A DNA stretch of 64,000 bases, taken from Prorocentrum cordatum (Eukaryota > Sar > Dinophyceae > Prorocentrales > Prorocentraceae). Positions 22,091-45,612 of the stretch are shown here, piece by piece (within the stretch, counting starts at the first letter, position 1; each line of letters opens with the position of its first letter). A program made the position numbers and the translations under genes. Location: positions 430,504-494,503 of the forward strand of contig CAUYUJ010016471.1 of NCBI GenBank assembly GCA_963575745.1, read 5' to 3'. The notes beneath the pieces are model-generated. The model did no database searches, was not told the DNA's origin, and was given only the letters and a program-made list of their open reading frames with translations.

Positions 22091-22096
22091 CGGAGC
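22085..22096 (+). promoter_or_regulatory. Candidate primer-binding site
   Basis: TGGTGGCGGAGC directly at the end of the 5' LTR matches 9 of 12 bases of TGGTATCAGAGC, the initiator-Met-tRNA complement used by many copia elements. Confidence 0.4.
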
Positions 22097-22673: not shown

Positions 22674-23166
22674 GTGGTCTGGGAGGGTTCGCGAGGACCA
22701 TAGCCATGAGAGTACCTTCTGGAATCATCAACTTTGGCGTAACATTGGTGGTCGCCACGCTGACGGCGCCACCTACATCATGTTCCTCCTCAACAGTAAA
22801 TTCGAACATCTAGAGGAGGAGCGCCGATTGAATTCATCTCATCGAGTTTCGCGTCCAAGCGGGAGAGCGGATCGACCAGACGTTGGCGCGCTTTGAGATA
22901 GCACGCTTCGAGGCCGAGACCGGGGGCTTCAATATCCCTTCCAGATCCTAACAGTCATCCTGTTCAGGGCTTTGGGTGTGGTTACGCCGCGTGCACCACA
23001 ACTACTACAACCACTCAACCACCAAGTGCCAAGGACCCAGCAACATTTTGACTCTTTACTCGAACGCATGAAGTCTTATGCTCACATTGCTGAGTGAACC
23101 CCTGGCAACATTGGTGATATATTTAGCCGCGGTCATCGTACCGAAACCTTTCACACTGATACTAAT
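22674..23166 (+). pseudogene. Gag capsid-like domain, split over three frames
   Basis: Three consecutive blocks resemble the UBN2/copia Gag capsid region but lie in different frames: LGGFARTIAMRVPSGIINFG (from about 22676), ATYIMFLLNSKFEHLEEERR (about 22770-22830), and ERIDQTLARFEIARFEAETG (about 22862-22920). Then VILFRALGVVTPRAPQLLQP follows from 22964 and runs to TGA at about 23095. The order and the FEHLEEERR, ERID and LLQP motifs match what I expect of dinoflagellate copia Gag. At least three indels have broken the gene. Confidence 0.7.
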
Positions 23167-24175
23167 GCAGGGCAACCTGCCACCAGCGTCTGGAACGATG
23201 CTCCACAACCAACAAAAGCTACAACCGCATTAGCTCAACATGGTGGCCAGCCTACGGGGTCGCAAGACTCCTGGGTTCGATATCAGGGACCGTCGGCAAC
23301 GGCGGTCCCTGCCCAAACCACTTCCCTTGCAGGCTCGGCGGGTCTGAATTTGACTCTGGTACCGACACCGACACTTCATCAGATGAAAGAACTGGTGCTT
23401 AGATTGTTCCGACATGCCAACGTATCTGACAGAAGAGCAACAGGTCCAGTGGTTATGTCTAGGATACTGGAAACACAATCGCCGTTGGAGACGCTTATTA
23501 AGAAAACACTTCGCGAGGTGCGACGCACTATCCGGCGGGAGTTCAGAGCAAAGGGTCAGGGTAGAGGCAAGGGTGAAGGCAAACGACGGCGACTACATGG
23601 CAGAGGTATATTGGCATTCTTGGCATCCCTCACTGGACCACGATGCGAAGACTTGTTCCGGGGGACATGTGGAGCCCGCAGGCGCACTTCAGGACACGGC
23701 AAGGGGCGTCGGGGTAACCCGAAAGATGCCCATGGGAAAACCATGGAATGTGAGATCTGCCCTAGCACGCAACAATTCCGTCGTGAATGCCCCCGAGGCG
23801 ATGGGAGAGGCAGGGGCCCGTCGATACATGTGGCACAAACCGATTCGGACATCCAGTATGTCGACTGGGAGACGCTATTAGACACCCCCATTGCCGCCGC
23901 CCTTTTTATGGCCGCCAGGCATCTTAGCCCCAGCGTGTCTCTCGAGAGATATGCCGACGAGCTCTTCGAGGAGATCTACGTTGGCCACGACGAGATCAAC
24001 CTGGCGGACTGGTTGGGCATCCCCATCGCGGGGCAACCTGCACAAATTGAGTTCGTTAAGGGTTGCCACGTGCTCACCGATTCGGACCGCGAGATGGCGG
24101 GGGCACCTGCGGACTCCGATGCTACAATGCCAGCAGCAGAGGAGGAGCTACAATTGATACTCCAGCCGCAGGTCA
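23167..24175 (+). pseudogene. Gag C-terminal region with altered CCHC zinc knuckle
   Basis: One frame is open from upstream of 23350 to 24753. It is Lys/Arg/Gly-rich (GQGRGKGEGKRR, GKGRRGNPKDAHGK) and ends in a retroviral-type knuckle at 23749-23790: C-X2-C-X4-Q-X4-C. The third ligand, normally His, is Gln (CAA), which should weaken zinc and RNA binding. A parallel frame at 23414-23530 (YLTEEQQVQWLCLGYWKHNR) is a better match for the segment just before, so a frameshift lies near 23520. Downstream are acidic segments (ERYADELFEEIYVGHDE) and two in-frame hairpin units at 24028 and 24097. Confidence 0.75.
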
Positions 24176-25399
24176 TTGGTAATCCTATATGCGGAGAACC
24201 ATGCGACGACGACCGTTGGCGGGGAAGCCCGCGCGATGCTGGTGACATGTCCCAACGTAGCCAATATGAACTTGGACGTAACGAAGGCCCTCACTTCACG
24301 TTCGCAGTGCACGCCCGGCCTGCGAACCGCCCAGTTTGGAGGCGCGCGCGTCGTAAAGATGACGACGAGGACGAATGGGGGACTGAGAGTCATCGCCCGC
24401 AGCGTCATGGTCGGAGTCATTCGCGCAGGCGCTCGCGCGCCCGTTCTAGTGGCGCACAGCGCCCGCGTTCCCCTGACGCGAGGAGCCGAAGGACTCCACC
24501 TAGAAGGGGGCGCTCGCGGGGAAACCCGCCTCAGGACGAGGGCCGGCCAGGCGAATCCGACGGCCCAGGCCTGCGGCATCTCGTCAGCAACGAAGATCAT
24601 GGGCTGGTTCGCCATTATTTCAGCACCAACCACGCAGCGCTGGCTCGACGACGGCTGGGCCGAGCACGACATCCGCCGCTGGCACTCACTCCGCAATGTC
24701 ACGCGGGGCGCCGACGGCAAGATCGCCCGTGCCAACAGAGGTTTTGGTATTGAGTCGACCCCCGCGCTTGCCAAGAGGAACGCAAAAAGGGTCACTGTCA
24801 AGGATCGAGAAGAATGCCAGTGCCAGGTCTGCAGCTGCGGAAATCCTGCGGACCGCAGACCAGAATGTCCGATGGAGCGTCCTTCAAGAAGCCCCAACTT
24901 TGAGAAGACACCGTGGGTCTGGTCCTATGGAGATGGTTTGGGTCGCAAGGTGGATCCCACTAACCCTTCCCCTAGACTATGCATGGCCAAAGCTGATGAC
25001 CAGCCGATCGCCGACAACGAGGCAAAACTCACTGAGCAAAGGTGGAAGAACCCCGACACAAATCACCGCCCCAAGCGATGCATTCGAGGATATCATGAAA
25101 TCATGGTTGAGGCATCACCTGCGGGGCAACCCGCCTCCTCTTCTCATGAAGGCGCTGATCCTCCGAAGGGCGATAAAAGGGATGACGACCCTGTCCAAGC
25201 TAAGGCAGTTGACCCGACTGCCGCTGCACATGGTTCAGAATACGAATACACTTACGCAGCGGACAGCAGCGAGTCGCGCACTGCTGATTTGGTCATGCCC
25301 AACCAGCGACGGAGGACGTGGACTTGGCGCCTGGCACAATGGTGTCGTATCATTCCAGAGAAGTTGGATGGCCAGTCGCCAAAATACTGTGCAAGCTGA
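24176..25399 (+). pseudogene. Copia polyprotein linker region, 407-residue frame
   Basis: A continuous frame between Gag and the Tudor-like segment. No domain is recognised. It includes a Cys cluster (CQCQVCSCGNPADRRPEC) that could be a degenerate knuckle, and WSYGDGLGRKVDPTNP. The hairpin unit at 25121 is read in frame as AGQPA, whereas those at 24219 and 24516 are in frame 3, showing that the ancestral frame differed in the first part. It overlaps the next fragment by 82 bp. Confidence 0.5.
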
Positions 25400-25992
25400 A
25401 CGATGGACACTATAAGTTGGCCATCAAAAGCAAGGCTCAGATCAAGAACATGCCACTTTGCATGTCATCATCGAGAGATGCGGGGGAACCTGCGGCGTCT
25501 TCAAATGCGGGGGCCCCCGCTGAGGAACCGCCCAAGGTTCCGAATTCTCAGAAGAAGCGATCTGAGAAGGACGTCGATATATCTCCATCACCAAGTACAC
25601 CAACGTCACCAATTCCAGCATCATCTAAACAAAGGATGAGGACCGGCCCAGCAGGGGCCGACCTTGGAAGCAACGCGCCACACAGGTCTGCGGGGGAACC
25701 TGCTTGCAGACAGCACTCCAGGGGGCCCGCAGCGGCTGCGGCAGCATCGGCGTTCCGAGGCAGCAGTGCCCCCGCGCCGAAGGAACCTGTATACATGCGC
25801 GGACCAACTCCTGGCAGGCTCCACAGGGGAGCTGGCTGGGCCCCGCCATTGAAATGCGCAGCCATGGGGCCCTCCTCGCAGCGAGATGAGGTTGAGATGG
25901 CGCTGCAGACTACATTAAAAAAAACCAGGAGCTGCTCCGAAGATCGCCAGATGCCAGTGCCACGACATCCGCGAAAGGAAGAACCCATCTGA
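25318..25992 (+). pseudogene. Tudor-like domain and low-complexity linker
   Basis: Opens with LAPGTMVSYHSREVGWPVAK and then ILCKLNDGHYKLAIKSKAQI, which has the layout of a small Tudor-like beta-barrel: a G-x-x-V-x-Y-x-S strand, a W-x-x-A strand and a G-x-Y-x-L strand. The rest is Ser/Pro/Ala-rich with three hairpin units (25480, 25507, 25690) read as AGEPA, AGAPA and AGEPA. The Tudor-like call rests on pattern only. Its role in a retroelement is unknown; binding modified chromatin to guide insertion is a guess. Confidence 0.5.
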
Positions 25993-26026
25993 GAGTGCAA
26001 GCTCATCTGCAGCGCCAGCTGCGGCA

Positions 26027-26826
26027 GTGACCCCTGCGGGGGCAGCCGCTGAACCATCCTCTGCGTCTGCGGGGCAACCTGCTGCTACCCTTGAATTGGC
26101 AGAGGGAAGCAGGCGATTCTGGGAAACCTTGGGAAACCTGCACCATATGAAGGTCAACCCAGCCTACGGGCCCTCTGCCGCTGACGGCTCTGACCGATAC
26201 AGAGTGGTACAATGCAATGTAGAATGCACCGCCACACACGCTGATAACGATGCTCTTGGCCGCCAGCGCGTCCGCAACATCTTGCGGAAAGAGCCTGATC
26301 GTTGCTTCAATTCCGAGGAGGAATACTTAGCGCAGATACTGCGCCAGGAGCATATCAGCACGAAGCTCCCGAGTGAGCACGATAAGCGTTGTTGCTCGGA
26401 GTGGCTCGCTACAGCCACTCGGCGCAGGCCATTTCGCAGCGACCGGCTCTCTCCCATCGGTTCATCGTCTGTGTCACCTCGCTCGACGAGTTCGGCGGCA
26501 GGGTGGGCCTCCGAGACCTGCTGGAGAATTGGCCGCCGGAGAACCACGAGCATTTGCATATTCATCACCTGAAAGTCACCAAGAAATGCCTCCGAGGCCG
26601 GCACTGGGCACATCAAGCACAGGCTGTGCTCGACCTCTGCGGGATGTTCGACAACGACCCCGGCAAGCAGGCGAATCGATTTCAGGTGGATAAGTTAAGT
26701 TTTGCGGGGAAGCCCGCCCGACGTACTTTTCGCGCCCCTGCATTGGACAGCAATCCAGGCATCGGGCGCCCACAATCTCTGTGCTCGCGGGTAGCAGACC
26801 TGAGCGAACCGGGAGCGCCATGCTAA
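26027..26826 (+). pseudogene. Copia polyprotein fragments (frames 2 then 1), unknown domain
   Basis: The 26027-26572 frame begins PAGAAAEPSS and carries AGQPA at 26069, then a plausible helical segment (EGSRRFWETLGNLHHMKVNP, then Asn/Arg/Glu-rich sequence). It overlaps a frame from 26389 (SLDEFGGRVGLRDLLENWPP, HLHIHHLKVTKKCLRG) that carries AGKPA at 26704. The two look like one ancestral protein split by an indel at about 26400-26450. No family recognised. Confidence 0.45.
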
Positions 26827-26881
26827 TTCATCCACGGCGCGCAATGGATAACGCCCCGAACATAATACACTTCGGTCTGTC

Positions 26882-27730
26882 TTGCCGCGGCGAGGGCAAT
26901 CCCAGAGGGGAGGGCAGGCAGTGGCTTCGCGGATGCCCATAGATGGGCGGATCCAGTCAGGCCTGCGGGTGGAATCCGACGCTCTGATCAGGGTGTGCCT
27001 CAAGAACCTACTTCGCGACAACATCCCGGTCTGGCGGTCTGCCAACGACATCATCATGACGTCGGGCATCCAAGGCAGAATTTTGCCAAGCCACATTGTT
27101 CAACTTATTGGTATCATGCCTTATTGTGCTCAATGCAAATATGATCGAGTTGGGCAGGTTTGGGTCAACGAATTGCATCTTGAAGACAACGAGCGGGGCA
27201 ACCTGCACGGTCCCACTCCTGTGCCAAGGGAATGCGATGAGTACCCACGCGATGCTTCGACATTGAAAGCATGGATTGCGCCTGGGACTCCCTGTAATCT
27301 CAAGGCACCTATTTTCGACACCTTCGGCGGAGGTAGAACATGCCTTTATTCACGATGCAAGAGGCGTATCCAGCGGGGGCGCCTGCGGGAAGCTCGGATC
27401 GGTCACGGATCCAAGCTCAGAGCGCTGACTGACCTGTCTGGCACGACATCCAGCGGAGTCTCGCTGAACGACGAACTGCGCGCGAGCGACCCCTGGCGTA
27501 ATCAGGCGCAGGAGTTGCTTGCACCTGCGGGGCCACCCGCCGAATTCGCACCCATGAACAGGGCCGCGACCCCGTTCGGCGCCCCGCGGAGCGCTGAGAG
27601 CACCGACAGTTTGCAGACCAGACTCCACAGCATCAGAACGGACCCTCAGCACTACCAAGCCTTGCAGGCTACATCGCCATCTGCATCTCCGCGTGCTGTT
27701 GCGGGGCAACCAGCTATTACAGACCAGTAG
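26882..27730 (+). pseudogene. Copia polyprotein fragment, 282-residue frame, unknown domain
   Basis: Open to TAG at 27728-27730. It includes SDALIRVCLKNLLRDNIPVW and PYCAQCKYDRVGQVWVNELH, then Ala/Ser-rich sequence with in-frame hairpin units at 27527 (AGPPA) and 27701 (AGQPA). Units at 27193 and 27373 are in another frame, so 27180-27400 is displaced relative to the ends. I considered a tRNA 2'-phosphotransferase-like fold but the match is too weak. Confidence 0.4.
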
Positions 27731-27754
27731 TCTGCCCAGAGGGCCGAGAGCCTA

Positions 27755-28951
27755 TTGGGGCAGCAGCAGTGGATGCACAGGCAGATGCGTGAGGCTATGG
27801 AGAAGATGAGGCGGGGCGGCATCGACCTCCCGAGCGCCAGCTGGACTCCGCCCTGGGAATACGTTCCAGACGCGAATCCATCACCTGATCATCCTGATAG
27901 ATATGGATACATACCAGCATTCTTCAGCCATCCGGCGTGCGATCCGGCGGCTGCTGAGAGGCCTTTTGCACCGCCTATGGATGCGCCTATGTTTTCTGGT
28001 TACTATGGTCAGGCGACTGGTATTCCTGGGGTGGGCATTCAACCCGAAAGCCCGTGCTTTCGGGCGACTGCCGATGATTTCTATCGGTCCCAGCTGACGC
28101 GGGGAGCCGGATACGAATCCGGTATTCCAGGCCAGGTGCCCCGCTACGGGTACCTGGCAGCTCACATGGACCAGGAGGTTAATCAACGCGGCCCAGAGTT
28201 GCGTCCCGAGATATTGGCCATCCACGAGGCGCAGCAGGCCAACCTCTCATTGCAACTGACTCGCCACCAACGCAATCAGGAGCGACAGCTACGCCGCATG
28301 ATGAATCGCGCGGGGGCACCCGCTGCTCCTACAGCTGCGGGGCAACCCGCCATGAGTCTGTCAGCAGCGGTTGCGATGATATCAATGTCCGCGGGGCTAC
28401 CAATGGCACCCGCAATCTCACCGAGCTGGTGTGAGATGGGAGAATCCACGCTTGATCGACAGACGGGCGTCAGGCCATCTGCCGCGCCACCGATTATAAG
28501 TAACGGTGATTTCACCAAATGCGCCATCTGCCTTGAAGAGTTTGTACACCACGACAAGGTGTGGAGGCTTCAGTGATGTCATATGTTTCGTGCGCAGTGC
28601 TGGGATCGCGTAGCACACGCGCACGTGGAACGACAGCTGGAAGGCGCACCAAGTGAAGCACCATGCGCTTTTTGCAGAGATGTAGGCCCCATCACAGCTG
28701 AGTTTCAGTGTGCCCATGCTGGGGGGCATAACGCAGCGGATCGACATGAAGCAATACTCCGCGGGGCAAATGAACTCAGAGACCTCCGTGAAGAGCTGAA
28801 CCGCATCGCGGCGATGATGACAGGCACTACAGCTGCTGCAGAGCCAACAGCTGCATCTGCGGGGCAACCTGCTGCACCTTCTGATGCGCGGCAGAACCCA
28901 ACGGCCGCAATGCCAGCCACAGAAGTGCAAATGCCTCTGGTAGCCAGGTAG
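27755..28951 (+). pseudogene. RING-finger segment of the copia polyprotein, cut by an in-frame TGA
   Basis: The frame runs to TGA 28574-28576 and continues in the same frame to 28951. A RING-H2-type finger spans 28520-28675: CAICLEEF, a 10-residue spacer, then RLQ-stop-CHMFRAQCW, then 27 residues and CAFC. Aligned to the usual RL-x-C-x-H-x-FH-x-x-C spacing, the TGA sits exactly at the third zinc-ligand Cys and the fifth ligand His is Arg, so two point mutations explain the decay. Upstream are AGAPA (28310), AGQPA (28337) and a coiled-coil-prone EAQQANLSLQLTRHQRNQER stretch; downstream are a second helical stretch and AGQPA (28859). RING fingers usually bind E2 enzymes. Confidence 0.68.
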
Positions 28952-28992
28952 CCGAATCAGCAGCTACACCTGCCGCAACGACGCCAGCAGGG

Positions 28993-30102
28993 TTGCCTGC
29001 CAATGAGGCGAGGCTGAGGCGTATAGAGAGATCCACTGAGGCAAGCGTGCACTGGATTCGCACGCCATATAGCAGTGCGCGGGGAAACCCGCTACGCACG
29101 CGCAGAACCGAGAGCCCAGCGAGTGCGCGCAGGGGTGCCAGTGCCATGTCTGAGCGAGACATGCTACACGCCTTGCTGCTGGTCAATACAGATGGGCAGA
29201 CAGCCGTGCGTGCCGACGAGGACACTTTGAAGAACATTCCATTTGCTGAACAGCATCCCTATAGGTATGACGAGTACCCTTCTTCATGGATCTCCCAGAA
29301 GCATCCTATCACAGAAGAAGAGGCCGGGGAGTACATGAACGTCTTTACGTCGATGACAAGGGATCAGTGGGTGTTGGGTCAAAGGTGCCGCAAAGGCATG
29401 CACGGCACGACGCTGTCCGCTGTGCCGGGCATATTCGGTGAACGACGCGAGTTAGCCCTGGCAGCGAACAGTGGAACCATGGTGGATGAAACGCTGACTA
29501 TCTTGTTGGACATTGGCAGCAATATCAACATTATTGGCTTGAGCTGCGCAGACATTCGAGCGAGTTTCGCGCTCCCATGGCCCCGGCATCAAGAAGCTGG
29601 ATATGACAAAGATGCCGTCTGTGTCTGGAGTGGGGCATGGAGCCGCCGTTTGCGACAAGTCGACGCATTGCAAGATTGCAATCAAAGGGGCGACTCCGCA
29701 GGGGCACTCGCTCTTGCCAGTTTAGACACCTCAGCCAGCGTGGCAGAGGGATCTGGCGAGAATCGACATGCAACCCTGGGGTTAAGGCGCACGTCAAAAA
29801 TGCGCGCCATCTTGATCCTTGAGCAGGAACATGAGAAGATGGTCATCCCAGGTACAGACATGCACAGGCCCCCCCTTGGTAAAGGCGCCAGGGCGCTGTA
29901 CCTGATAAAAGACACCATCAGGACACTTGGCGATTATGGTCGGCGAGTACGGGGTCGCAACAGAGGCCAATGGCTCGACGGCGCTTACTGCCATGGCCAA
30001 CCCTCAGCGCGAGGAAACACCCGCACTCATCAAGGAGGTCGCAGATTCGGAGCCGATGGCGGGGCAACCTGCATGCAGCAGCGCGGGGGCGCCCGCTCCT
30101 AA
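28993..30102 (+). pseudogene. Retropepsin-like aspartic protease of the copia element
   Basis: LTILLDIGSNINIIG at 29497-29541 is the protease active-site strand: LLD-x-GS with catalytic Asp at codon 29509 and NIIG after it. The true continuation lies in another frame (LDMTKMPSVSGVGHGAAVCD, from about 29600, to TAG at about 29730) and then returns to this frame as LRRTSKMRAILILEQEHEKM followed by VIPG. The middle of the protease is thus displaced by paired indels between about 29590 and 29730. Upstream SARGNPLRTRR is the out-of-frame reading of the hairpin unit at 29079. The protein would process the polyprotein if intact. Confidence 0.7.
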
Positions 30103-30534
30103 CGACACCCACGCGTACATGATGTCCCAGGACACCAGGGGCCTCAGTCACTCCATCAACGAGGAGACGCTTCCTTACGCGATTCAGTCTACGGTGAACA
30201 ACACCTCAAGACCTGGCATCGCAGGAATACGGTGCATGGGCGCAGCCCCACGCCTGCCGATCAGGACTTCGCCTTGCGGAACTTACAGGCGAAGGTCCAT
30301 CAAGCTATCTATGAGGAGGGCAGCAAGCGGGCGCCGCCCGACAACGATGCGGGGCAACCTGCTGCAGTGAGCGACACTGCCGAGAAGTATGACATCTTGA
30401 CATCGAGCAGTGGTTCAGGGGCCCATGGCACGGGCGTCTGGACGCCACCATCGCTTGAAAATGAGCGACGGGGGCAGGCGCGTGCCACGGCCTTTCGCGC
30501 TTGCCCAGACATGCCGCGCACTGAGGTATACTGA
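29927..30534 (+). pseudogene. Linker after the protease (two overlapping frames)
   Basis: The frame from 29927 to 30370 contains AGQPA (30059) and AGAPA (30083). The frame from 30232 to 30534 contains AGQPA (30349). Each frame owns its hairpin unit, so the coding line shifts between 30100 and 30340. No domain recognised. Confidence 0.45.
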
Positions 30535-30671
30535 GGAGCTGTCTTCAGGCTCGGGGACACCAGCATGCTTTTCCCAGGCGGCTGCTGTGCGCGCCAGGGG
30601 CGGCGGCGGACCCGGCTGCGCGGCTGCCGAAGAACAATAACGCTCATCTCATCATTGTCACTCTCGCGCCC

Positions 30672-31724
30672 TTGTCATTGAAGATATACGAGCAGCTTGC
30701 GCGGAAGTCCGAGCTCGAGGATACATGTGTGATTGTATTACACGAGGAGGTTATGACCTCTACTGGTACACAGTACTTGGGTGGCTCACTACCAGGGGAT
30801 TACCAACTACTGTTGGCGGCAACGCCCGCTGACTGCCATGCGCGATTGTCTGGGAAGCGGGCGGGGCCACATTGCCAGCGCATCCAAAATCTTATGACCA
30901 AATCTCAGGCTCTACGTATGTCTATTGTCCTTGTGGGACCTCCAGGACACTTCTGGAAATTAGGTCCTATACGCGATACTATTGAGGACTTATGCTCGCA
31001 GGTCCTTCATATGCGGTGTGGCCACTTCTGTCTGAAGTAGGACTGTTCAATTCGTTTACCGAGCGGTTCGTCCCTGCAGGTGGCAACCACCTACACGCGC
31101 ATCCCGACCAATCTGTGGAAATGCGCATGCCAAACAGCAGGGCCTGCAGGGAAACCCGCGCAACACGCAGAACACGAGTTAGATCGGTACTGCCAAAGCT
31201 CCCTGAGGGCGGAATGGCGAAACAAAACACTTGCCATCAAGACTGCAAGGCTAATTGATGAAATAGATTTTCGTGAAGCAAAGAGAAATCATACAAGTGC
31301 TGCACACCTCACCGTACACGCACGAGTGGACACAGGAGCTCGGACTTACGTCCAGTCTCCTAAGAATGGCCCTCAATGGGATCATGTGGCACGCTGGGTG
31401 ACGCTGATCCTCGGCGACAGTATTTTAATACAGGACATTCAGGTTCAAAATCAACCGATCGGGTACAATGTACCACTACCAAATGGTGCGACGAACATCC
31501 GTACTCGATTGCACTGGGAGTTTCCGGCGCCAATCGTACTTGGAAGCGAGGGACAGCGACCAAACCCAAGGCGGGTTACGACCGTCGATGACGATCGTCT
31601 CCCCCCCCCTTCGATTGAGCGCGGCCGCGCGCTACCCCCTATTTCCGAATTTCCGACACTTACTTCACCCGATACTGAACAACAACAGACAGCACTACCA
31701 ACTGATGCCTGGATGAAGCAAAAC
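30672..31724 (+). pseudogene. Copia segment upstream of the nested insertion
   Basis: Frame 30672-31040 (LKIYEQLARKSELEDTCVIV, SIVLVGPPGHFWKLGPIRDT) and frame 31080-31724 (YTRIPTNLWKCACQTAGPAG with a hairpin unit at 31146, LSSLRAEWRNKTLAIKTARL) resemble a segment of unknown function that I associate with dinoflagellate copia polyproteins ahead of the integrase. The protein reads into the CCT microsatellite only because of the insertion at about 31725. Confidence 0.45.
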
Positions 31725-31845
31725 GATTATAGCCGGAGTGAAGTATCCCCAAACAGGTTTTTTAAACCCACTGCGGTTTCCAAGGTCGATTGCGTGCCCG
31801 TCCAGTGCGGGCTGGCATGGCATGGTAAAACATGCCTCCTCCTTT

Positions 31846-31955
31846 TCCTCCTCCTCCTCCTCCTGCTCCCCCTCCTGCTCCTCCTCCTCCTCCTCCTCCT
31901 CCTCCTCCTCCTCCTCCTCCTCCTCCTCCTCCTCCTCCTCCACCTCCTCTTCATC
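31846..31955. repeat. CCT microsatellite 1
   Basis: Nearly pure (CCT)n, first of three; the others are at about 34613-34705 and 38440-38610. Confidence 0.95.
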
Positions 31956-32256
31956 CCGAACGGCATCTCGGAGCCCAGAGTTGCGAGGATGTCTCCAGCG
32001 TAACGGGCTGGACCACCTCGCGCGCGGCATATCGGACCCCAGAGTTGCGACGATGTCTCGGGCGACACGTGCTGCAAGGAAGTCTCAGGCGAAACGGGCC
32101 GGACCACCACGAGCGCGGCGTCTCAGAGCTCCGAGTTGCGGGGGCCTCTTGTGGCCTCCTGGACCCCACCTGGGGCTTCCTGAAGCCTCTTGGGGCTCCC
32201 AGGGGGGGATATCTAACATGTGGCCGTCGGGGCCTCCCAAAATGAGGGGGGGGGCC

Positions 32257-32317
32257 ACAAGAGCAGGAAGACTCAACGAATCGGCACCGGGTGTGTATTA
32301 ACTTGACGTGCTGATAG
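32257..32317. repeat. Conserved ~62-bp block, copy 1 of 6
   Basis: Starts ACAAGAGCAGGAA, contains CAACGAATCG and GTGTATTAAC, ends CTGATAG. Other copies: 35072-35134, 35773-35835, 36440-36502, 37049-37111, 39053-39115. It is always preceded by a GGCC(C/T)CCCAAAA and G-run segment and followed by GGGGGC(C/T)TCCTGGGG. Confidence 0.9.
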
Positions 32318-32939
32318 GGAGCTTCCTGGGGCCTCCTGGGAGCCTCCTGGGAATCTCCTGCGGACCCCTGGGGCCTGTCCTGGGCGTCTTGCGGCCTCCT
32401 GAAGCTCTCTGGGGCCTCCTGGGGCTCCCAGGGGGGATGTGTAACATGTGGTTTTCTGGGCCCCCAGGCTGGACCACCTCTTGCGCGGCATCTGGGAGCT
32501 CAGTCAGAATTGCCAGAATGTCTCAAGCGAAACGGGCCGGACCACCTTGCGCATGGCATCTCAGAGCTCAGAGTTGCGAGGATGTCTCAGGCGCAACGGG
32601 CCGGACCACCCCGCGCAGGGCATCTCGGAGCCCAGAGTTGCGAGGATGTCTCCAGCGTAACGGGCTGGACCACCTCGCGCGCGGCATATCGGACTCCAGA
32701 GTTGCGACGATGTCTCTTGCGAAACGTGCTGCGAGGAAGTCTCAGGCGAAACGGGCCGGACCACCACGAGCGCGGCGTCTCAGAGCTCCGAGTTGCAGGG
32801 CCTGTCCTGGGCGTCCTGCGGCCTCCTGGAGCTCTCTGGGGCCTCCTGGGGCTCCTAAGGTCCCAGGGGAGATATGTAAGAGATGGTCTTCTGGGCCCCC
32901 AGGCTGGACCACCTCTTGCGCGGCATCTGGGAGCTCAGA

Positions 32940-33545
32940 GTTAGGAGAATGTCTTGTGCGAAACGGGCCGGACCACCTTGCGCACGGCATCTCAGAGCTC
33001 AGAAATGCGAGGATGTCTCAGGCGAGACGGGCCGGACCACCTCGCGCAGGGCATCTCAGCTCAGAGTTGCGAGGATGTCTCAGTCGAAACGGGCCGGACC
33101 ACCTCTTGCGCTGCACCTCGGGGCCCAGAGTTGCGAGGATGTCTCAGGCGAAACGGGCCGGACCACCTCGCAAGCGGCATCTCGGAGCCCAGAGTTGCGA
33201 GGATGTCTCAGGCGCAACGGGCCGGACCACCTCTCGCACGGCATCTCGGGGCTCAGAGTTTCGAGGATGTCTCAGGCGAAACGGGCCGAACCACCTCGCA
33301 ATCGTCATCTCGGAGCCTGGAGTTGCGAGGATGTCTTAGGCGAAACGGGCCGGACCACCTCTCGCACGGCACCTCGGAGCTCAGAGTTTCGAGGATGTCT
33401 CAAGCGAAACGGCCCGGACCACCTCTCGCGCGGCGTCCCGGAGCGTAACTTTTCGAGGGTGTCTCAGGCGAAACGGCCACCCCGGCCAACTCAGAAACGA
33501 GAGTTGTGAGGATGGCTCAAGCGAAACGGCCCGGACCATCAGATT
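32940..33545. repeat. 64-bp tandem array
   Basis: About nine consecutive units. Measured spacing between successive GAGGATGTCT starts at 33135, 33199 and 33263 is exactly 64 bp. Because 64 is not a multiple of three, all three frames translate into the same rotating peptides. Confidence 0.93.
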
Positions 33546-33654
33546 TTTTTGAGGATGTCTCTGCTCCCCTTTCCCTCGGCCAGAGTTAGCTTCTATCACA
33601 ACAGCACCACGTTCAGCAAGCTGTTTGGGGAACAAACATCTGGACGTCGGATGT

Positions 33655-34250
33655 CTGGGGATGGCGGAAGGCAAGGCGCGCATGGCCGATGTTGAGGCGG
33701 CAAAATGACGGAGACGGCGACGGGGAGGCGGAGGCAGAGGCACAGCAGCGAAAGGCGAGAGGCGTGAGGAGGAAGGAGGGAAGGGGAGGCAGGCGGGAGG
33801 CAAGGGGAGGGAGGTGGGGGGAATGAGAGAGGTTTCATGCAGAACGGGGCACACCATCTCGTGCGCAGCATCTCGAAGAACCCTGACGAAGAACCAGTCC
33901 CGGGGACGAGATCGAGAGGTCCGCGGGCGCACGTCTCGAAACAAAAATCGTGACGTCGGATGTCTGCGGAGGGCGGAAGGCAGGGCGCGCATGGCGGCAT
34001 CTCGGAGCTTCGCATTGTGAGGATGGCTCGGGAGAAACGGGCTGGACCACCTCGCGTGCGGCATCTCGGAGCTCAGTATTGGAAGGATGCCCCAAGCGAA
34101 ACGGGCCGTTCTACCTCTCGCTTCCCGTTGAGCCCTCTCATGCAACTCCATTCCTCATCCCTCCTCCTCCTCCTGCCTGCTCCCTCCTCCTCCTGCCTGC
34201 TCCCTCCTCCTCCTCCTCCTCCTCCAACTCCTCCTCCGGCACGTTTTGAG
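33655..34250. other. Unique-looking spacer in the nested block
   Basis: G/A-rich sequence with GGCGGAGGCAGAGGC words and a repeat of ACGTCGGATGTCTG (about 33646 and 33951), then CTCCTCCTCCTGCC tracts. 38010-38190 is a second copy of the first part. Confidence 0.55.
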
Positions 34251-34502
34251 ACGTCGCTAAAATGAGTATAAAAATCCTGTTTGGGGAACCCTGTCTCGAA
34301 GCCCAGAGTTGCGAGGATGTCCCAGGTCGCACCTGGTCGACGAGTAAGCTGTCGGGTCGGCACTGTGAGAGGCTCCACCGCCATGCTGTGAACTCAGAAG
34401 CAGCTTTAAGAGGAAGCGGGGGAGGGCGCGGAAGCGGGGGGGCATGTCGTTATGGTTCCCCCGGGGATGATACCGAGAGGTACGCGGGCGCACGTCTCAA
34501 AA

Positions 34503-34900
34503 GATTATAGCCGGAGTGCAGTATCCCCAAACAGGTTTTTAGACCCACTGCGGTTTCCAAGGTCGATTGCGTGCCCGTCCAGTGCGGGCTGGCATGGCAT
34601 GTTAAAACATGCCTCCTCCTCCTCCTCCTCCTCCTCCTCCTCCTCCTCCTGCTCCTCTTCCTGCTCCTCCTCCTCCTCCTCCTCCTCCTCCTCCTCCTCC
34701 ACCTCCTCTTCATCCCGAACGGCATCTCGGAGCCCAGAGTTGCGAGGATGTCTCCAGCGTAACGGGCTGGACCACCTCGCGCGCGGCATTTCGGACCCCA
34801 GAGTTGCGACGATGTCTCGGGCGACACGTGCTGCGAGGAAGTCTCAGGCGAAACGGGCCGGACCACCTCGAGCGCGGCGTCTCAGAGCTCCGAGTTGCCG
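34503..34900. repeat. Large duplication of the left end of the nested block
   Basis: GATTATAGCCGGAGTG through the (CCT)n tract and two 64-bp-like units repeats 31725-32135 with small differences; offset about 2778 bp at the left end. Confidence 0.9.
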
Positions 34901-34999
34901 GGGCCCTCTGGGGCCTCCTGGGAACTCTTGGTGACCTCCTAGGGCTTTCTCCTGGGCCTCCTGTGGCCTCCTGGACCCCACCTGGGGCTTCCTGAAGCC

Positions 35000-37115
35000 T
35001 CTTGGGGCTCCCAGGGGGATATCTAACATGTGGCCGTCGGGGCCCCCCAAAAAGGGGGGGTGGGGTGGGCCACAAGAGCAGGAAAAATCAACGAATCGAC
35101 ACCGGATGTGTATTAACTGGACACGTTCTGATAGTGTGCCTCCTGGGGCCTCCTGGGAGCCTCCTGGGAATATCCTGCGGACCCCCGGGGCCTGTCCTGG
35201 GCGTCCTGCGGCCTCCTGAAGCTCTCTGGGGCCTCCTGGGGCTTCCAGGGTCCCAGGGAGGATATGTAACATGTGGTCTTCTGGACCCCCAGGCTGGACC
35301 ACCTCTTGCGCAGCGTCTGAGAGCTCAGAGTTGCGAGAATGTCTTGTGCGAAACGGGCCGGACCACCTTGCGCACGGCATCTCAGAGCTCAGAGTTGCGA
35401 GGATGTCTCAGGCGAGATGGGCCGGACCACCTCGCGCAGGGCATCTCGGAGCCCAGAGTTGCGCACGGCATCTCAGAGCTCAGAGTTGCAAGGATGTCTC
35501 AGGCGAGACGGGCCGGTGTCTCGGGCGAAACGTGTTGCGAGGAAGTCTCAGGCGAAAAGGGCCGGACAACCTCGAGCGCGGCGTCTCAGACTTCCGAGTT
35601 GCGGGGGCCTCCTGGGGCCTCCTGGCGCCTCCTGGGGACCTCCTGGGGCTTCCTCCTGGGCCTCCTGTGGCCTCCTGAACTCCACCTGGGGCTTCCTGAA
35701 GCCTCTTGGGGCTCCCAGGGGAGGATATCTAACATGTGGGCCGTCGGGGCCCCCCAAAATGGGGAGGGGGCCACAAGAGCAGGAAAAATCAACGAATCGA
35801 CACCGGATGTGTATTAACTGGACACGTTCTGATAGGGGGCCTCCTGGGAGCCTCTTGGGAATCTCCTGCGGACCCCTGGGGCCTGTCCTGGGCGTCCTGC
35901 GGCCTCCTGGAGCTCTCTTGGGCCTCCTGGGGCTCCCAGGGTCCCAGGGGGGATAGGTAACATGTGGTCTTCTGGGCCCCCAGGCTGGACCACCTCTTGC
36001 GCAGCATCTGAGAGCTCAGAGTTGCGAGAATGTCTTGTGCGAAACGGGCCGGACCACCTTGCGCACGGCATCTCAGAGCTCAGAGTTGCGAGGATGTCTC
36101 AGGCGAGATGGGCCGGACCACCTCGCGCAGGGCATCTCGGAGCCCAGAGTTGCGAGGATGTCTCCAACGTGACGGGCTGGACCACCTCGCGCGCGGCATC
36201 TCGGACCCCAGAGTTGCGACGATGTCTCGGGCGAAACGTGCTGCGAGGAAGTCTCAGGCGAAACGGGCCGGACCACCTCGAGCGCGGCGTCTCAGAGCTC
36301 CGAGTTGTTGGGGCCTCCTGGGGCCTCCTGGTGACCTCCTGGTGCTTCCTCCTGAGCCTCCTGTGGCCTCCTGGACCCCACCTGGGGCTTCCTGAAGTAA
36401 CATGTGGCCGTCGGGGCCCCCCAAAATGGGGAGGGGGCCACAAGAGCAGGAAAAATCAACGAATCGACACCGGATGTGCATTAACTGGACACGTTCTGAT
36501 AGGGGGCTTCCTGGGGCCTCCTGGGAGCCTCCTGGGAATCTCCTGCGGACCCCTGGGGCCTGTCCTGGGCGTCCTGCGGCTTCCTGAAGCTCTCTGGGGC
36601 CTCCTGGGGCTCCCAGGGTCCCAGGGAGAACATGTAACATGTGGTCTTCTGGGCCCCCAGGCTGGACCACCTCTTGCGCGGCATCTGGGAGCTCCAAATT
36701 GCGAGAATGTCTTGTGCGAAACGGGCCAGACCAACTTGCGCACGGCATCTCAGAGCTCAGAGTTGCAAGGATGTCTCAGGCGAGACGGGCCGGTGTCTCG
36801 GGCGAAACGTGTTGCGAGGAAGTCTCAGGCGAAACGGGCCGGACCACCTCGAGCGCGGCGTCTCAGAGCTCCGAGTTGCGGGGGCCTCCTGGGGCCTCCT
36901 GGCGCCTTCTGGGGACCTCCTGGGGCTTCCTCCTGGGCCTCCTGTGGCCTCCTGAACTCCACCTGGGGCTTCCTGAAGCCTCTTGGGGCTCCCAGGGGAG
37001 GATATCTAACATGTGGGCCGTCGGGGCCTCCCAAAATGGGAGGGGGCCACAAGAGCAGGAAAAATCAACGAATCGACACCGGATGTGTATTAACTGGACA
37101 CGTTCTGATAGGGGG
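35000..37115. repeat. Higher-order tandem modules of about 0.6-0.7 kb
   Basis: Four modules, each with a conserved 62-bp block, a GGGCCTCCTGGGG minisatellite, a GATATGTAACATGTGG junction and two to four 64-bp units. Block starts at 35072, 35773, 36440 and 37049 give spacings of 701, 667 and 609 bp. Confidence 0.88.
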
Positions 37116-39803
37116 CCTCCTGGGGCCTCCTGGGAGCCTCCTGGGAATCTCCTGCGGACCCTGGGGCCTGTCCTGGGCGTCCTGCGGCCTCCTGGAGCTC
37201 TCTTGGGCCTCCTGGGGCTCCCAGGGTCCCAGGGAGGATATGTAACATTTGGTTTTCTGGGCCCCCAGGCTGGACCACCTCTTGCGCGGCGTCTTGGAGC
37301 TCAGAGTTGCGAGAATGTCTTGTGCGAAACAGGCCGGACCACCTTGCGCACGGCATCTCAGAGCTCAGAGTTGCGAGGATGTCTCAGGCGAGATGGGCCG
37401 GACCACCTCGCGCAGGGCATCTCAGACCTCAGAAGTTCGAGGATGTCTCAGGCGGGCTCCCAGGGTCCCAGGGAGGATATGTAACATGTGATCTTCTGGG
37501 CCCCCAGGCTGGACCACCTCTTGCGCGGCATCTGGGAGCTCAGAGTTGCGAGAATGTCTTGTGCGAAACAGGCCGGACCACCTTGCGCACGGCATCTCAG
37601 AGCTCAGAGTTGCGAGGATGTCTCAGGCGAGATGGGCCGGACCACCTCGCGCAGGGCATCTCAGAGCTCAGAGTTTCGAGGATGTCTCAGGCGAAACGGG
37701 CCAGACCACCTCTCGCGCGGCACCTCGGGGCTCAGAGTTTCGAGGATGTCTCAAGCGAAACGGGCCGGACCACCTCTTGCGCGGTGTCCCGGAGCGCAAT
37801 TTTTCGAGGATGTCTCAGGCGAAACGGCCAATCCCGGCCACTTCAGAAACGAGAGTTGTGAGGATGTCTGAAGCGAAACGGCCCGGAGCATCAATTTTTG
37901 TGAGGATGTCTCTGCTCCGACTTCCTCGGCCAGAGTTAGCTTCTATCACAACAGCACCCCGTTCCGCAAGCTGTTTGGTGAAAAAATCGTGACGTCGGAT
38001 GTCTGGGGAGGGCGGAAGGCCGTGCGCACATGACGGATGCTGAGGCGGCAGAAACGACGACGGCGGGGACGGGGAGGCGGAGGCAAAGGCGCAGCAGCGG
38101 GAGGCGGGGGGCGGGAGGAGGGAGGAGGGAAGAGGAGCCAGGCGGGAAGTGGGAAGAGGGAGGCGGGAGAAGGAATGAGAGAGGTTGTGATTGGAGCCCC
38201 TGTGCTACGAAACGTCTCAGGCAGAACGGGCCAGACCATCTCGCGCGCAACATCTTCGAGCCTTGCATTGCGAGGATGGCTCAATCGAAACGGGCCGGAC
38301 CACCTCGCGAGCGACATCTTGGAGCTCAGTATTGGAAGGATGTCTCAAAAGAAACGGGCCGGACAATCTCTCGCACACGTTCTGACAAGTCCACGTCGCA
38401 CTCGCTTCCCGTTAGGTCCTCTCCTACAACTCCTTTCCTTCTCCCTCCTCCTCCTCGTCCTCCTCGTCCTCCTCCTTCTCCTCCTCTTCCTCCTCCTCCT
38501 CCTCCCCCTCCTCCTGCCTGCTCCCTCATGCACATCATCCGCCTCCTCCTTCTCCCTTCCATCTCCTTCTCCTCCTCCTCCTCCTCCTCCTCCTCCTCCT
38601 CCACCTCCACTTCATCCCGAACGGCATCTCGGAGCCCAGAGTTGCGAGGATGTCTCCAGCGTAACGGGCTGGACCACCTCGCGCGCGGCATCTCGGACCC
38701 CAGAGTTGCGACGATGTCTCGGGCGAAACGTGCTGCGAGGAAGTCTCAGGCGAAACGGGCCGGACCACCTCGAGCGCGACGTCTCAGAGCTCCGAGTTGC
38801 GGGTGCCTCCGGGGGCCTCCTGGTGACCTCCTGGGGCTTCCTCCTGGGACTCCTGTGGCCTCCTGAACTCCACCTGGGGTTTCCTGAAGCCCCTTGGGGC
38901 TCCCAGGGGGGATATCTAACGTGTGGCCGCTTGGGCCCCTCAAAATGGAGCCTCCTGGACCTCACCTGGGTCTTCCTGAAGCCTCTTGGGGCTCCCAGGG
39001 GGGATATCTAACATGTGGCCGTCGGGGCCTCCCAAAATGAGGGGGGGGGGCCACAAGAGCAGGAAGACCCAACGAATCGGCACCGGGTGTGTATTAACTT
39101 GACACGTTCTGATAGGGGGCCTCCTGGGGCCCCCTGGGAGCCTCCTGGGAATCTCCTGCGGACCCCTGGGGCCTGTCCTGGGCGTCCTGCGGCCTCCTGG
39201 AGCTCTCTGGGGCCTCCTGGAGCTCCCAGGGTCCCAGGGAGGAGATGTAACATGTGGTCTTCTGGGCCCCCAGGCTGGACCACCTCTTGCGCGGCATCTG
39301 GGAGCTCAGAGTTGCGAGAATGTCTTGTGCGAAACAAGCCGGACCACCTTGCGGACGGCATCTCAGAGCTCAGAGTTGCGAGGATGTCTCAGGCGAGACG
39401 GGCCGAACCATCTCGCGCAGGGCATCTCAAAGCTCAGAAGTTCGAGGGTGTCTCATGCGAAACGGGCCGGACCACCTCTCGCGCGGCATCTCAGAGCTCA
39501 GAGTTGCGAGGATGTCTCAGGCGAAACGGGCCGGACCACCTCGCGCAACGCATCTCAGAGCTCAGAGTTTCGAGGATGTCTCAGGCGAAACGGCCCGGAC
39601 CACCTCTCGCACGGCACCTCGGGGCTCAGAGTTTCGAGGATGTCTCAAGCGAAACGGCCCGGACCACCTCTCGCGCGGCGTCCCGGAACGCAACTTCCCG
39701 AGGATGTCTCAGGCGAAACGGCCAATCCCGGCCAATTCAGAAACGAGAGTTGTGAGGATGTCTCAAGCGAAACGGCCCAGACCATCAAATTTGTGTGAGG
39801 ATG

Positions 39804-39878
39804 TCTCTGCTCCGACTTCCTTCGGCCGGAGTTAGCTTTTATCACAACAGCACCCCGTTCAGCAAACTGTTTAGGGAA
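39804..39878. repeat. Right boundary segment of the nested block
   Basis: GTTAGCTT(C/T)TATCACAAC and CGTTC(A/C)GCAA(A/G)CTGTTT also occur at about 33585 and 37934, so this segment belongs to the block. The copia coding sequence resumes after it. Confidence 0.65.
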
Positions 39879-40602
39879 AAAGCAGAAAGTTGACGAAGAA
39901 GCCGACATCAGACCACGCAAGATACCCAAGGTAGTCGAAGACGGCAACGACGACTGCGGTGAGGACCTGAAGGGCCTCGAGTGTGGTGCCTACTACACCG
40001 ACATTCCCATAGACACCGACAGCGACGACGATGAGGAAACCTTCATCACACTACCAGCGGGGTTACCTGCGGATGCACATGCTGATGTGGTTTCCATAAT
40101 CCGAACTTTGTGTTACGGACGACATAACAAGGTAGACGCGCTGGAATTATGTGTGAGTAATGGGGGAATGTCGCAATTAGCCTTCAGCCGAGGTTTATCC
40201 TCAGGGGGAAACCTCGACAAACGTTCCTATGTTGACCTTAAAACCAAGGACGTCCAGGACGCAGTTATGCGCTACTTGGATGTGTACTTCGTCAACGTTA
40301 TATACTACAACCCCAACTGCAGAACAACTGGACGGTCGTCCTATTTCAATTCGAAGGTCAACTGCGACACGTGGCATGAACACCGCAAGGAAGACCTTCC
40401 ACACATCAAGTTCTGTGGAAGGGCTGCCGTGCGTCACAATGACCTCCAACGGTTGTACTTACGAGAACAACCAGTGGGTACTTGGGTGGATGAAATACCA
40501 CCATGGATTACATTGGCCAAACGCGAGGGCACTTGCAAAACTAACATGGACCAATATACCACAGGTCTACGCGAATCCCATGGGGTTACGCAAAGCTATT
40601 GA
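39879..40602 (+). pseudogene. Copia segment resuming after the insertion
   Basis: Frame 1 is open from about 39879 to a stop at 40602. An acidic stretch (DTDSDDDEETF) is followed by AGLPA from the hairpin unit at 40057 and then YFVNVIYYNPNCRTTGRSSY. From about 40440 the better-looking protein is in frame 2 (NNQWVLGWMKYHHGLHWPNA), so an indel lies near 40440-40480. Function unknown. Confidence 0.5.
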
Positions 40603-41875
40603 GATAATGGGCAACCGCCGTCTCTTGCTGACACCCTTCGAGAGAGAACGGTGCACGGGCCATCGTCAGCATGCCTCGGTTTGTGACGAGGAACTGGCCA
40701 GGGCAGCCCAATATACACCGAAGATGCAGTTCCTCTTCGTAGAAGCAGTGCAAATTGCACATGGCATGTTCCTAATGAATCGCGATCCCTTTCATGATAA
40801 TCCTCTTTCGTCTTCCGTTCCCGTCACGAACGTGCGAAGATGCGACCTGGATGGCCCAACTGTCCGTGGACGCCCCGACGGGTCGATCATGGGACCACCC
40901 TCAGGGGGGTGGAGATGTCCAGCATGTGCGGATAACGTCAACATGTATTCCCCTTTACACGACAGGAGCCCTAAATACTGTAGGTGGTACGATAAGGAGG
41001 ATTACTACTTGGAGTGCCCAAGCTGCAAGAGGAACTACGCTCAGGCTAAACATGGGCACTTGCGCGCGCCTGGCATTTGTAAATTTGCCAAACCGTGGAA
41101 GCTGCCTGACAACCGCGGACAGGAGCTTCCGGCCCCTGCCGAACTGGCAGCACCACCACCTGCGACGGCAGCAGCACCCGAGGCACGAGCCGCCCAGCAA
41201 ATTGCGCGGCTACGAGCCTCGAGGCCTGGTTCCAGAGCCGGGCCAACAGCAGGCGCCAGCAGCCGCGACATCACATTAGGCAGACATGCCGTTGAACCAG
41301 CTGCGGGGCAACCTGCTTCGAGTGGAGCTGGCAGCTCAGGCGATCACAGACGGCTACCACAATTAGTAGCCAGACGAGGTCGACAGCAAGAAGAGCATCC
41401 ACCTCCACCATCACCTGCGGTTGACCCTGCTGCTCGCCCGAGACTTCCAGACTGGTCAAGGTTAGTTGTGCAGGTTTATATGCAGAACCTACGCAGCCTT
41501 GGTCCAAGCGTGGTAACACGCGAGTTGCGAAAGCTGCCTTTGCGGTGGTTCCACGCCAAACAGCCTAAGATGAGGTTCGTCTTAATAACCAAGGCTGGTC
41601 TGGACAACGTCAGGCTGAACCTGATCAAGGGCGTCTGTGATACATGTCGGGTGTGCAGGGCTCGGGGCAAGCTAGGGCATGCCGTTATGCCGTCTACTGC
41701 GCTACCTGGCAAGTTCAGCGAAGAAGTCGACTGCGATCTGATGTCTTACAAACATGAACACAATAGATTTCATATAATTGATCGTTGCGTTCGATATGGC
41801 GCTGGAAGCGAGATACCAGATAAAAATATGACCAGCATCTTAGATGCGTATCATCAGTGCTGGATGCAATTCTGA
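40440..41875 (+). pseudogene. Zinc ribbon and integrase N-terminal half
   Basis: The frame-2 ORF (nominally 40229-41875). WRCPACADNVN at 40912 and YLECPSCKRNYAQAKHGH form a CxxC...CxxC zinc ribbon with following His residues. After an Ala/Pro/Arg linker with AGQPA (41303) come an integrase zinc-binding motif remnant (GVCDTCRVCRARGKLGHAV, about 41632) and the start of the rve core: FSEEVDCDLMSYKHEHNRFH. The first catalytic Asp candidate is in CDLM (about 41734). Then IIDRCVRYGAGSEIP and the helix SILDAYHQCWMQF before TGA 41873-41875. Integrase would join the cDNA ends to host DNA. Confidence 0.7.
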
Positions 41876-42720
41876 CCTTCCAAAGTACTCGTACTCCGAC
41901 CGAGAGGGCAGGCGCGCTTAACAACGACACCGCAAAGGCAGTCCTTTAGGCAAAAGGCACTGAGCTGAGGACGCGTGTGCGTGGACAACGCGCTACGACA
42001 ATTGAGGCCAGAAGCGGCTTATAACTTAACAGGTTAGACATGCCTCTTGTGTTCACACGCCTACTGCATGAAGCCTTATTCGCCGCCAACGCGCTCATCT
42101 TTCATGCAAAGCATTGTTTGGACGGCAACCAGCGATGCTACCCGACCTGCGTGTTCTGGACCATGAACAGCAGACAGAAACATCCGACCACTCCAGAGAA
42201 CCGACTTTCCGCCCGGTAAGCATTGAGACCATTACTCAAACCACTGCAGCAGCCAAAACCAATCGTGCTTTACGGACCAAGACCACTATCACTGGTCAGC
42301 ATTATTATGACAAGGGGAATCTGGTTGACCATCAGTGCCCCGCTACTACACAGGACGACTGGGGCGGCTGGAACGGCCCTTCCCCCGTCGCGCGAAGAGA
42401 TCCCGACAGGGGCCAAGTCATCATCAAAGTGGGGGGGCCGCGATGTGCAAGTCCAATATGGCGACGCACGACATTCACTGTTCATCGAGGTTTTGATTGC
42501 TCGAGAAATTGGCTCTGACAATACAGCACTACGGACTGCGTTGACGTTCGTGGCCAGTTTACCCGCGGGGCGACCTGCTATGACAATTGGTTGCATTCCG
42601 ACCAGACAGGGAATGCTGCAGATGACAAGTGCGAGCCGATTATCTCCTAAAGTACACTTAGCTCTTGAATACCTCATCAGGAACTTCTTTCGCATCGAGA
42701 ACGTAGTTTCCGTCACGTGA
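41876..42720 (+). pseudogene. Integrase C-terminal half and post-integrase domain, broken
   Basis: The integrase continues in three frames. SDREG near 41896 supplies the second Asp, AGALNNDTAKAVL follows in another frame, and RATTIEARSGL near 41997 supplies the Glu. FGRQPAMLPDLRVLDHEQQ at 42117 is the usual end of the copia integrase, followed by QHYYDKGNLVDHQ and DDWGGWNGPSPVARRDPDRG (42356-42415), a post-integrase barrel-like block. The frame then shifts to QYGDARHSLFIEVLIAREIG and carries AGRPA (42565). At least four indels. Confidence 0.7.
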
Positions 42721-45340: not shown

Positions 45341-45612
45341 ACTCAAGGAGGCTGGGACAAAGGCGAGAGATTGCGAGCGTTTGTCCGCGGCCATTTGTGC
45401 TCAAGCGGCCGGCCGCCAACATATGACTGTGCCTCGTGAAACACAGTACTTGCCACTGAGACCGAGAACCTTTTCGTTTGACATGGCCCGTCGCTCCCGC
45501 GACGATCTCCTACTTTGGGGACCATCGTTACTACGGTACAACAGAGTTGAATACGGGCTTCGCCTTAAGCGAAGCTTCTGGTTGGGCCTCCCAACCTCCT
45601 TCGAACTGGGGG
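45341..45612 (+). repeat. 3' LTR of the copia element
   Basis: Direct repeat of 21813-22090. The spliced-leader-like segment is at 45384-45405 and is closer to the leader than the 5' copy. It ends in a G13-14 run. Confidence 0.8.

Follow-up and report, generated by a model that had tools for sequence, protein, structure and literature searches.

Why should a protein-coding sequence hold the same short hairpin tens of times, when coding sequence is normally thought to carry few overlapping RNA signals at most? This question is raised by a stretch of the genome of the dinoflagellate Prorocentrum cordatum (NCBI GenBank assembly GCA_963575745.1, contig CAUYUJ010016471.1, positions 430,504 to 494,503 of the forward strand), whose 64,000 nucleotides (nt) are called the window below. 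The original prediction placed at least 24 copies of a 14-nt hairpin within one retrotransposon, and they do lie in such an element, an old long terminal repeat (LTR) retrotransposon of the Ty1/Copia type (21814-45616). In this element and in a near-intact relative on contig C1 (2045383-2061818), giant polyprotein genes contain tens of copies of a near-exact 14-nt RNA signal, which occupies more than one frame and shows measurable covariation. The current analysis proposes that the unit is a hairpin of the sense RNA, kept by selection on nucleotides, and that it is probably read by the element's own Gag for packaging or assembly, a role suggested by its many copies along the RNA.

The hairpin unit in the window

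The full unit consists of a 5-bp stem and a 4-nt loop, GCRGG-GNNR-CCYGC. The hairpin sequence is present at all 24 positions first listed, and the consensus then given, GCGGG-NNNN-CC(C/T)GC, fits 23 of them, the unit at 23167 beginning with GCAGG. The first loop base is G in all 24, which gives the tighter consensus GCRGGG-NNN-CCYGC, and the loop is mostly G-N-N-R. With GCR allowed, the element holds 26 units on the + strand, including those at 28987 and 31146:

23167..23180, +, unit GCAGGGCAACCTGC
24028..24041, +, unit GCGGGGCAACCTGC
24097..24110, +, unit GCGGGGGCACCTGC
24219..24232, +, unit GCGGGGAAGCCCGC; other frames open
24516..24529, +, unit GCGGGGAAACCCGC
25121..25134, +, unit GCGGGGCAACCCGC
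25480..25493, +, unit GCGGGGGAACCTGC
25507..25520, +, unit GCGGGGGCCCCCGC, palindromic
25690..25703, +, unit GCGGGGGAACCTGC
26069..26082, +, unit GCGGGGCAACCTGC
26704..26717, +, unit GCGGGGAAGCCCGC
27193..27206, +, unit GCGGGGCAACCTGC; the open frame reads RGN
27373..27386, +, unit GCGGGGGCGCCTGC; other frame open
27527..27540, +, unit GCGGGGCCACCCGC
28310..28323, +, unit GCGGGGGCACCCGC
28337..28350, +, unit GCGGGGCAACCCGC
28859..28872, +, unit GCGGGGCAACCTGC
28987..29000, +, unit GCAGGGTTGCCTGC, absent from the first list
29079..29092, +, unit GCGGGGAAACCCGC; the open frame reads RGN
30059..30072, +, unit GCGGGGCAACCTGC
30083..30096, +, unit GCGGGGGCGCCCGC
30349..30362, +, unit GCGGGGCAACCTGC
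31146..31159, +, unit GCAGGGAAACCCGC, with the window's single A-C pair
40057..40070, +, unit GCGGGGTTACCTGC; the C1 element has a unit at the same site
41303..41316, +, unit GCGGGGCAACCTGC
42565..42578, +, unit GCGGGGCGACCTGC; the C1 element has a unit at the same site

The pattern GCGGGNNNNCCYGC, counted on both strands and with palindromic sites counted twice, has 35 matches in the window (G+C content 59.8%), whereas 100 dinucleotide shuffles gave 1.12 on average and never more than 5. The loop length is equally sharp, since a loop of 4 gives 24 matches on the + strand and every other length from 0 to 15 gives 0-4. Units on the antisense strand number one in the window element (the palindromic unit at 25507) and none in the C1 element. 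The sole window match outside the element, at 63922 with the loop GCCC, is best seen as chance. The loops had been described as GNRA-type, and this holds in part: the C1 loops are GNCA in 23 of 27 units and GNRA in only three, so that an exclusively GNRA loop is rejected and the shared form is GNNR. The favoured loops differ by family, being CCA or TCA in family A, to which the C1 element belongs, CAA, GCA or ACA in family B, which includes the window copy, and AAA in family D.

Selection on nucleotides rather than on the peptide

The commonest reading of the unit is Ala-Gly-x-Pro-Ala (AGxPA), earlier counted in 19 of 24 units. Judged by the longest open frame, a different counting rule, it is found in 18 of the 26 window units, the other two frames being used by six and two; among the 27 units of the C1 element, 23 are in the AGxPA frame and one and three in the others. 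This use of several frames, together with the fixation of synonymous positions, points to a constraint on nucleotides rather than on the peptide. In the C1 element, 23 of the 25 AGxPA peptides are encoded by exact units, against 0-5 in 20,000 synonymous redraws, so that the refuting outcome named with the original prediction was not obtained; outside the units GGG makes up 17.5% of its Gly codons and CCC 14.9% of its Pro codons. Just beyond the unit, the last Ala codon has a free third base. Past the 14 nt, information falls to near zero; the weak biases that remain are mainly those at -15 and -1 in the window and at -1 and 16-17 in C1. Dispersed units have almost no flanking sequence in common.

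Family D, placed in the same lineage because of protease-like residues seen by eye, carries a unit with the loop GAAA that is read mostly in another frame, as Arg-Gly-Asn-Pro. At one family D locus (L057), the five units read RGNPP three times, QGNLP once and AGQPA once.

Pairing in the sense RNA

Compensatory stem changes are present at stem pair 3-12, which in the window is G-T in 13 units, G-C in ten, A-T in two and A-C in one. G-T and A-C are each one transition away from G-C, both at CpG, so that strand-symmetric mutation would be expected to produce them equally; the observed 13 to 1 departs from this (p 0.0018). RNA allows a G-U pair but not an A-C pair, so that the frequency of the former and the near absence of the latter point to pairing in the sense RNA. 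The predicted folding energies of the 14-mers follow the same order (G-C -9.3, A-U -7.8, G-U -7.1 and A-C -3.2 kcal/mol), and the antisense of the G-U unit folds at -1.6 kcal/mol. In context, the mean stem probability is 0.42 in the window and 0.44 in C1 for the sense strand, and 0.21 and 0.31 for the antisense.

Across both strands of the 4.13-Gb genome, and for loops that end in A, there are 30,980 matches of the G-C type (reversed pattern as control 3,390), 14,238 of G-T (1,509), 13,618 of A-T (734) and 2,951 of A-C (938). Two family D sites, separated by 81 nt, are of the G-C type on contigs C15 and C26 and of the A-T type on C56 and C107, which looks like a compensatory double change, orthology being taken from the spacing alone.

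The stem also appears to end at five pairs. The positions just outside it (-1 and 15) could pair in only 2 of the 26 window units, against 9.4 expected (p 0.0005), and in 9 of 42 units of other B-type stretches, some of them mutually orthologous, against 15.9 (p 0.01). Offsets 2 and 3 outside the stem gave nothing clear (lowest p 0.06). This avoidance was noticed after the fact among the three offsets, and -1 and 15 are third codon positions in the AGxPA frame.

Conservation, gain and loss of units

Eight B-family stretches were aligned (the window, L041, L042, L044, L046, L048, L050 and L051; pairs 64-87% identical), and each of 40 unit instances was taken as reference, giving 236 ungapped comparisons. 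The fixed bases, which are those of the stem outside pair 3-12 and the first of the loop (positions 1, 2, 4, 5, 6, 10, 11, 13 and 14), differ in 3-11% of these, against 24% at position 3, 17% at position 12, 32-50% in the loop and 30-33% in the flanks, which bears out the claim that the stem is kept while the loop varies. In an overlapping four-row set (86 comparisons), the fixed bases differ in 4-13% and the flanks in 35-37%, and positions 3 and 12 vary as often as the flanks (36% and 35%). The seven aligned relatives come from 14 extra stretches taken beside B-type copies (L041-L054). Among the seven excluded from the alignment, L043, L049 and L052-L054 contain no unit and L045 and L047 one each, possibly as the result of a fixed offset that bypassed the part rich in units. 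Several units are not shared: at the window units 28987 and 29079 the relatives have other sequence of about the same length, and some further sites have decayed units in at least one copy.

Related elements differ by whole units together with their spacers. A second family A copy, on contig C2, exceeds the C1 element by one unit in a 30-nt array and by two units in a 24-nt array. At the site that corresponds to the 24-nt array, two unit positions spaced by 24 nt, some of them decayed, are present in the window, L046, L048 and L050, as in C1, and L041, L042, L044 and L051 are without these 24 nt; loss by mispairing between units is likely in these four B copies. Such 24- and 30-nt changes, with the covariation at pair 3-12, agree with the expectation that related elements would show gain or loss of the unit and compensatory changes. 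The more specific idea, that the unit inserts as 14-15 or 18 bp and duplicates its target, was not supported, as only these steps and one ambiguous 12-nt difference were seen. No target-site duplication was found around the units at lengths 1-6 and 9 in four unit sets (28 tests, lowest p 0.044, in the window at length 3), no clean empty site was found among the eight aligned copies, and no site was seen that differed between copies by a 14-nt insertion only.

Protein alignment of the C1 element to the window placed 15 of 28 C1 units (the 27 and one with another first loop base). Seven of these coincide with a window unit, another is 30 nt away from a window unit already assigned, and the remaining seven have no counterpart, one of them facing an imperfect unit of the first list at 27701.

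Thirteen proteins related to a 1264-amino-acid (aa) open reading frame (ORF) of the C1 element contain 0-3 AGxPA each, five in total. The peptide AGKPA occurs at the site of the 42565 unit in two of them, at residue 1290 of P0001 and residue 1119 of P0004, with no other AGxPA there (site matched by eye), and the unit may have arisen from it. Among the relatives, P0014 shows 35% identity, has Tpt1 and RING domains and contains eight AG[QNH]PA, so that units or their peptide reading may exist elsewhere. The DNA of P0001 and P0014 was not found in viral contigs, and only P0014 itself was recovered among the 8000 candidates scored for further relatives of it.

Genomic distribution and strand bias

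The matches listed on contigs C1-C3 form seven clusters of 13-31, with 15 scattered matches. For the G-C, G-T and A-T types, 124 of 136 matches lie in the clusters (68, 36 and 20, respectively) and 12 are scattered. All 124 clustered units (loops ending in A) lie on one strand per cluster, and the sense ratio of G-T to A-C in the seven clusters is 36 to 0. The three A-C matches within clusters all lie antisense, and the corresponding sense sequence is G-T with a T-N-N-C loop. This sense reading, GCGGG-TNNC-CCTGC, is a recurring T..C-loop variant (C2:1090373, C2:1609506 and C3:542854). Three of the seven clusters were read wholly or partly as element DNA (C1; C2 at 1.09 Mb, L046; C2 at 1.70 Mb, L055 and L056), and the remaining four presumably are too.

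One array (L059, C19:65450-65750), a 33-nt tandem repeat coding AGLPAATASPG with units whose loops are GCTA and GTTA, may belong to a different kind of gene and may be an exception to this clustering. One of its stems is of the A-T type, and a related stem carries a T-A pair.

What may read the hairpins

The proposed explanation starts from two steps that the data support, namely that a hairpin of 5 bp with a 4-nt loop would form in the sense RNA of a lineage of ~16-kb Ty1/Copia-type LTR retrotransposons, and that selection on nucleotides would maintain the units. Its reader would need the stem sequence, the first loop G, mostly a purine as the last loop base, and a stem that ends at 5 bp, which is clearest in the window. 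A zinc-knuckle Gag may use the copies as many weak sites through which the long genomic RNA is selected, condensed and packaged. Gag is the likeliest reader because 12-31 copies per cluster lie along the RNA in more than one frame, and multi-site packaging (PMC6281560) would be compatible with a Gag of the CCHC kind, with the great length of the RNA and with the number of copies. Copy number would rise and fall by in-frame tandem duplication or loss of a unit plus its spacer, as at the two sites described above; the proposal covers this turnover and not the first spread of units to distant sites. More tentatively, the units could be a reiterated assembly code in which family-specific loops in the same stem allow Gag to distinguish the long RNA of its own family from those of rivals; an RNA signal would have invaded the coding sequence in all of its frames. 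A packaging code would make this a natural, sequence-exact case of multi-site packaging, and the loop variants of the families make the idea directly testable.

Several results weigh against this proposal. The genome counts include many near-identical copies and are hence not independent, for which reason separate sites within one element are the cleaner test. Covariation is seen at pair 3-12 only, and T-A at pair 2-13 stays at background (602 matches, control 770), which suggests that sequence matters as well as pairing. The effect at the outside pair is weak in C1 (7 of 27 against 10.3 expected, p 0.10). The idea that local context favours the hairpin was rejected, since shuffled flanks give stem probabilities of 0.39 (window) and 0.75 (C1), so that real flanks are no better than shuffled ones and worse in C1, an effect that pairing between neighbouring units may explain. 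Finally, Ty1 and Ty3 have their cis signals close to the ends of the RNA and can do without most of the sequence in between (PMC4974528).

All of the RNA-level evidence would fit equally a hairpin read by a host RNA-binding protein, acting in export, stability, translation pausing between domains or as a sponge for a silencing factor, and a sponge, or an export or stability signal whose effect adds up, would also profit from many copies. The concentration of units in element clusters (124 clustered against 12 scattered) speaks against such a host factor, which is the main rival and a possible but less probable reader than Gag. A neutral, minisatellite-like sequence, spread by slippage and gene conversion and tolerated as in-frame linker residues, would account for the 24- and 30-nt steps between two copies of one family, for the 24-nt unit-to-unit difference within family B and for the favourite loops of families; it would lead one to expect neither dispersed units with almost no shared flanks, nor stems kept at shared sites whose flanks differ by ~31%, nor the G-T/A-C asymmetry and the avoided outside pair, and is improbable.

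Sharp 14-nt boundaries and the many unrelated sites would be natural for a DNA-level hairpin or tiny insertion with its own mobility. This origin is very unlikely given the lack of flank duplication and of a clean empty site in the eight copies, the single orientation, and the presence at 28987 and 29079 of other sequence of similar length in relatives. Selection on the peptide Ala-Gly-x-Pro-Ala, as a linker or as a protease site whose codons are strongly biased, has in its favour that AGxPA is the commonest reading, that AGKPA stands at one conserved site in two outgroup proteins, and that P0014 has eight AG[QNH]PA. A peptide-level cause is hardly credible as the explanation, as synonymous positions are fixed, the units occupy all three frames and family D reads its unit mostly as RGNPP; for families A and D, synonymous positions and frame use led to its rejection.

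Comparison with known systems

Short palindromes read in frame inside genes recall the Rickettsia palindromic elements, which are longer and occur in many unrelated genes. The units described here, in contrast, have 14 nt and are concentrated in one retrotransposon lineage: on C1-C3 they are gathered in the seven clusters instead of being spread over many unrelated genes, and no homologous sites with and without a precise insertion were found. No earlier description of such units was found in the open-access literature, as far as its accessible text goes, and the hairpin provides a ready marker for this lineage.

With dispersed packaging signals of the MS2 type, as presented in part of PMC6281560, the units share the arrangement of many stem-loops with a recognition motif along one RNA. 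The copies number 26 in the window and 27 in C1, and sense-strand pairing is indicated by the covariation at pair 3-12 and the G-U/A-C asymmetry, context folding being neutral or worse. MS2-type sites vary around the motif in the same account, whereas here the stems are near-identical, have a fixed 14-nt boundary, belong to a retrotransposon and are known from sequence alone. Ty1 and Ty3 resemble the present case as LTR-retrotransposon RNAs with Gag, the single CCHC zinc finger of Ty3 being needed for packaging; their cis sequences lie towards the RNA ends and internal sequence is mostly deletable, whereas the hairpins here run throughout the ORFs (PMC4974528).

The host retrotransposon and its relative on C1

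The window copy is homologous to the C1 element along its length, with broken reading frames (tblastn), and comprises the following parts:

21814..22093, +, 5' LTR, 83.7% identical to 45342-45616
22457..24231, +, gag-like region (tblastn, query the 816-aa ORF of the C1 element)
26458..27196, +, RNA 2'-phosphotransferase (Tpt1/KptA)-like region (tblastn to residues 846-1097 of the C1 ORF bearing PF01885)
31850..39829, no strand, repeat-rich insertion splitting the element (gap between tblastn matches)
43320..45167, +, Copia-type reverse transcriptase/RNase H region (tblastn to the C1 ORF with PF07727 RVT_2)
45342..45616, +, 3' LTR, counterpart of 21814-22093

The window LTRs (~280 bp) are 83.7% alike and those of C1 (289 bp) 99.0%. 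Pfam matches in the C1 ORFs are PF01885 (Tpt1/KptA, E 7.6e-15) and the reverse transcriptase PF07727 (RVT_2, E 2.5e-11), whose homologous region is present in the window; RING fingers also occur. Ten window ORFs and the 1264-aa C1 ORF gave no Pfam match, and the latter is a candidate integrase by its position and motifs. The translated C1 gag ORF holds CHTCGSTEHLRDQC, which we take by eye to be a CCHC knuckle. In C1 alone, and by eye, a 5-bp repeat (GGGAG) flanks both sides of the element, and the LTR is followed by a candidate primer site, TGGTAGCGGAGC, which we take to resemble that of initiator-Met tRNA. The LTRs, the RVT_2 reverse transcriptase and a gag with a CCHC motif are shared with Ty1/Copia LTR retrotransposons, from which the host elements are set apart by their ~16 kb, the Tpt1/KptA and RING domains and the hairpin units.

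In a search with the C1 reverse-transcriptase ORF, 43 of 15,543 first-look candidates were scored, namely C1 itself and 42 others at 99%, and a conserved pattern near this ORF has 876 genome matches against none for the reversed control. Two Prorocentrum cordatum proteins are 86-89% identical to a C1-element query over 14-15% of it.

The insertion at 31850-39829 is built of dispersed repeats that, translated in several frames, repeatedly give RNGPDHL/SELRGCL, and it contains no AGxPA and no unit (31851-39829). The presence of Tpt1/KptA (PF01885) and RING-finger domains in a retrotransposon (window 26458-27196; C1 element, L008) is an observation in its own right, and Tpt1/KptA capture by a retrotransposon is not the topic of any paper title found in the open-access literature. 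The 3' LTR is preceded by a pyrimidine tract, CTCCTCCCCC, and not by a purine tract, both in the window (45317-45341) and in C1 (2061505-2061529, which is L009 7505-7529).

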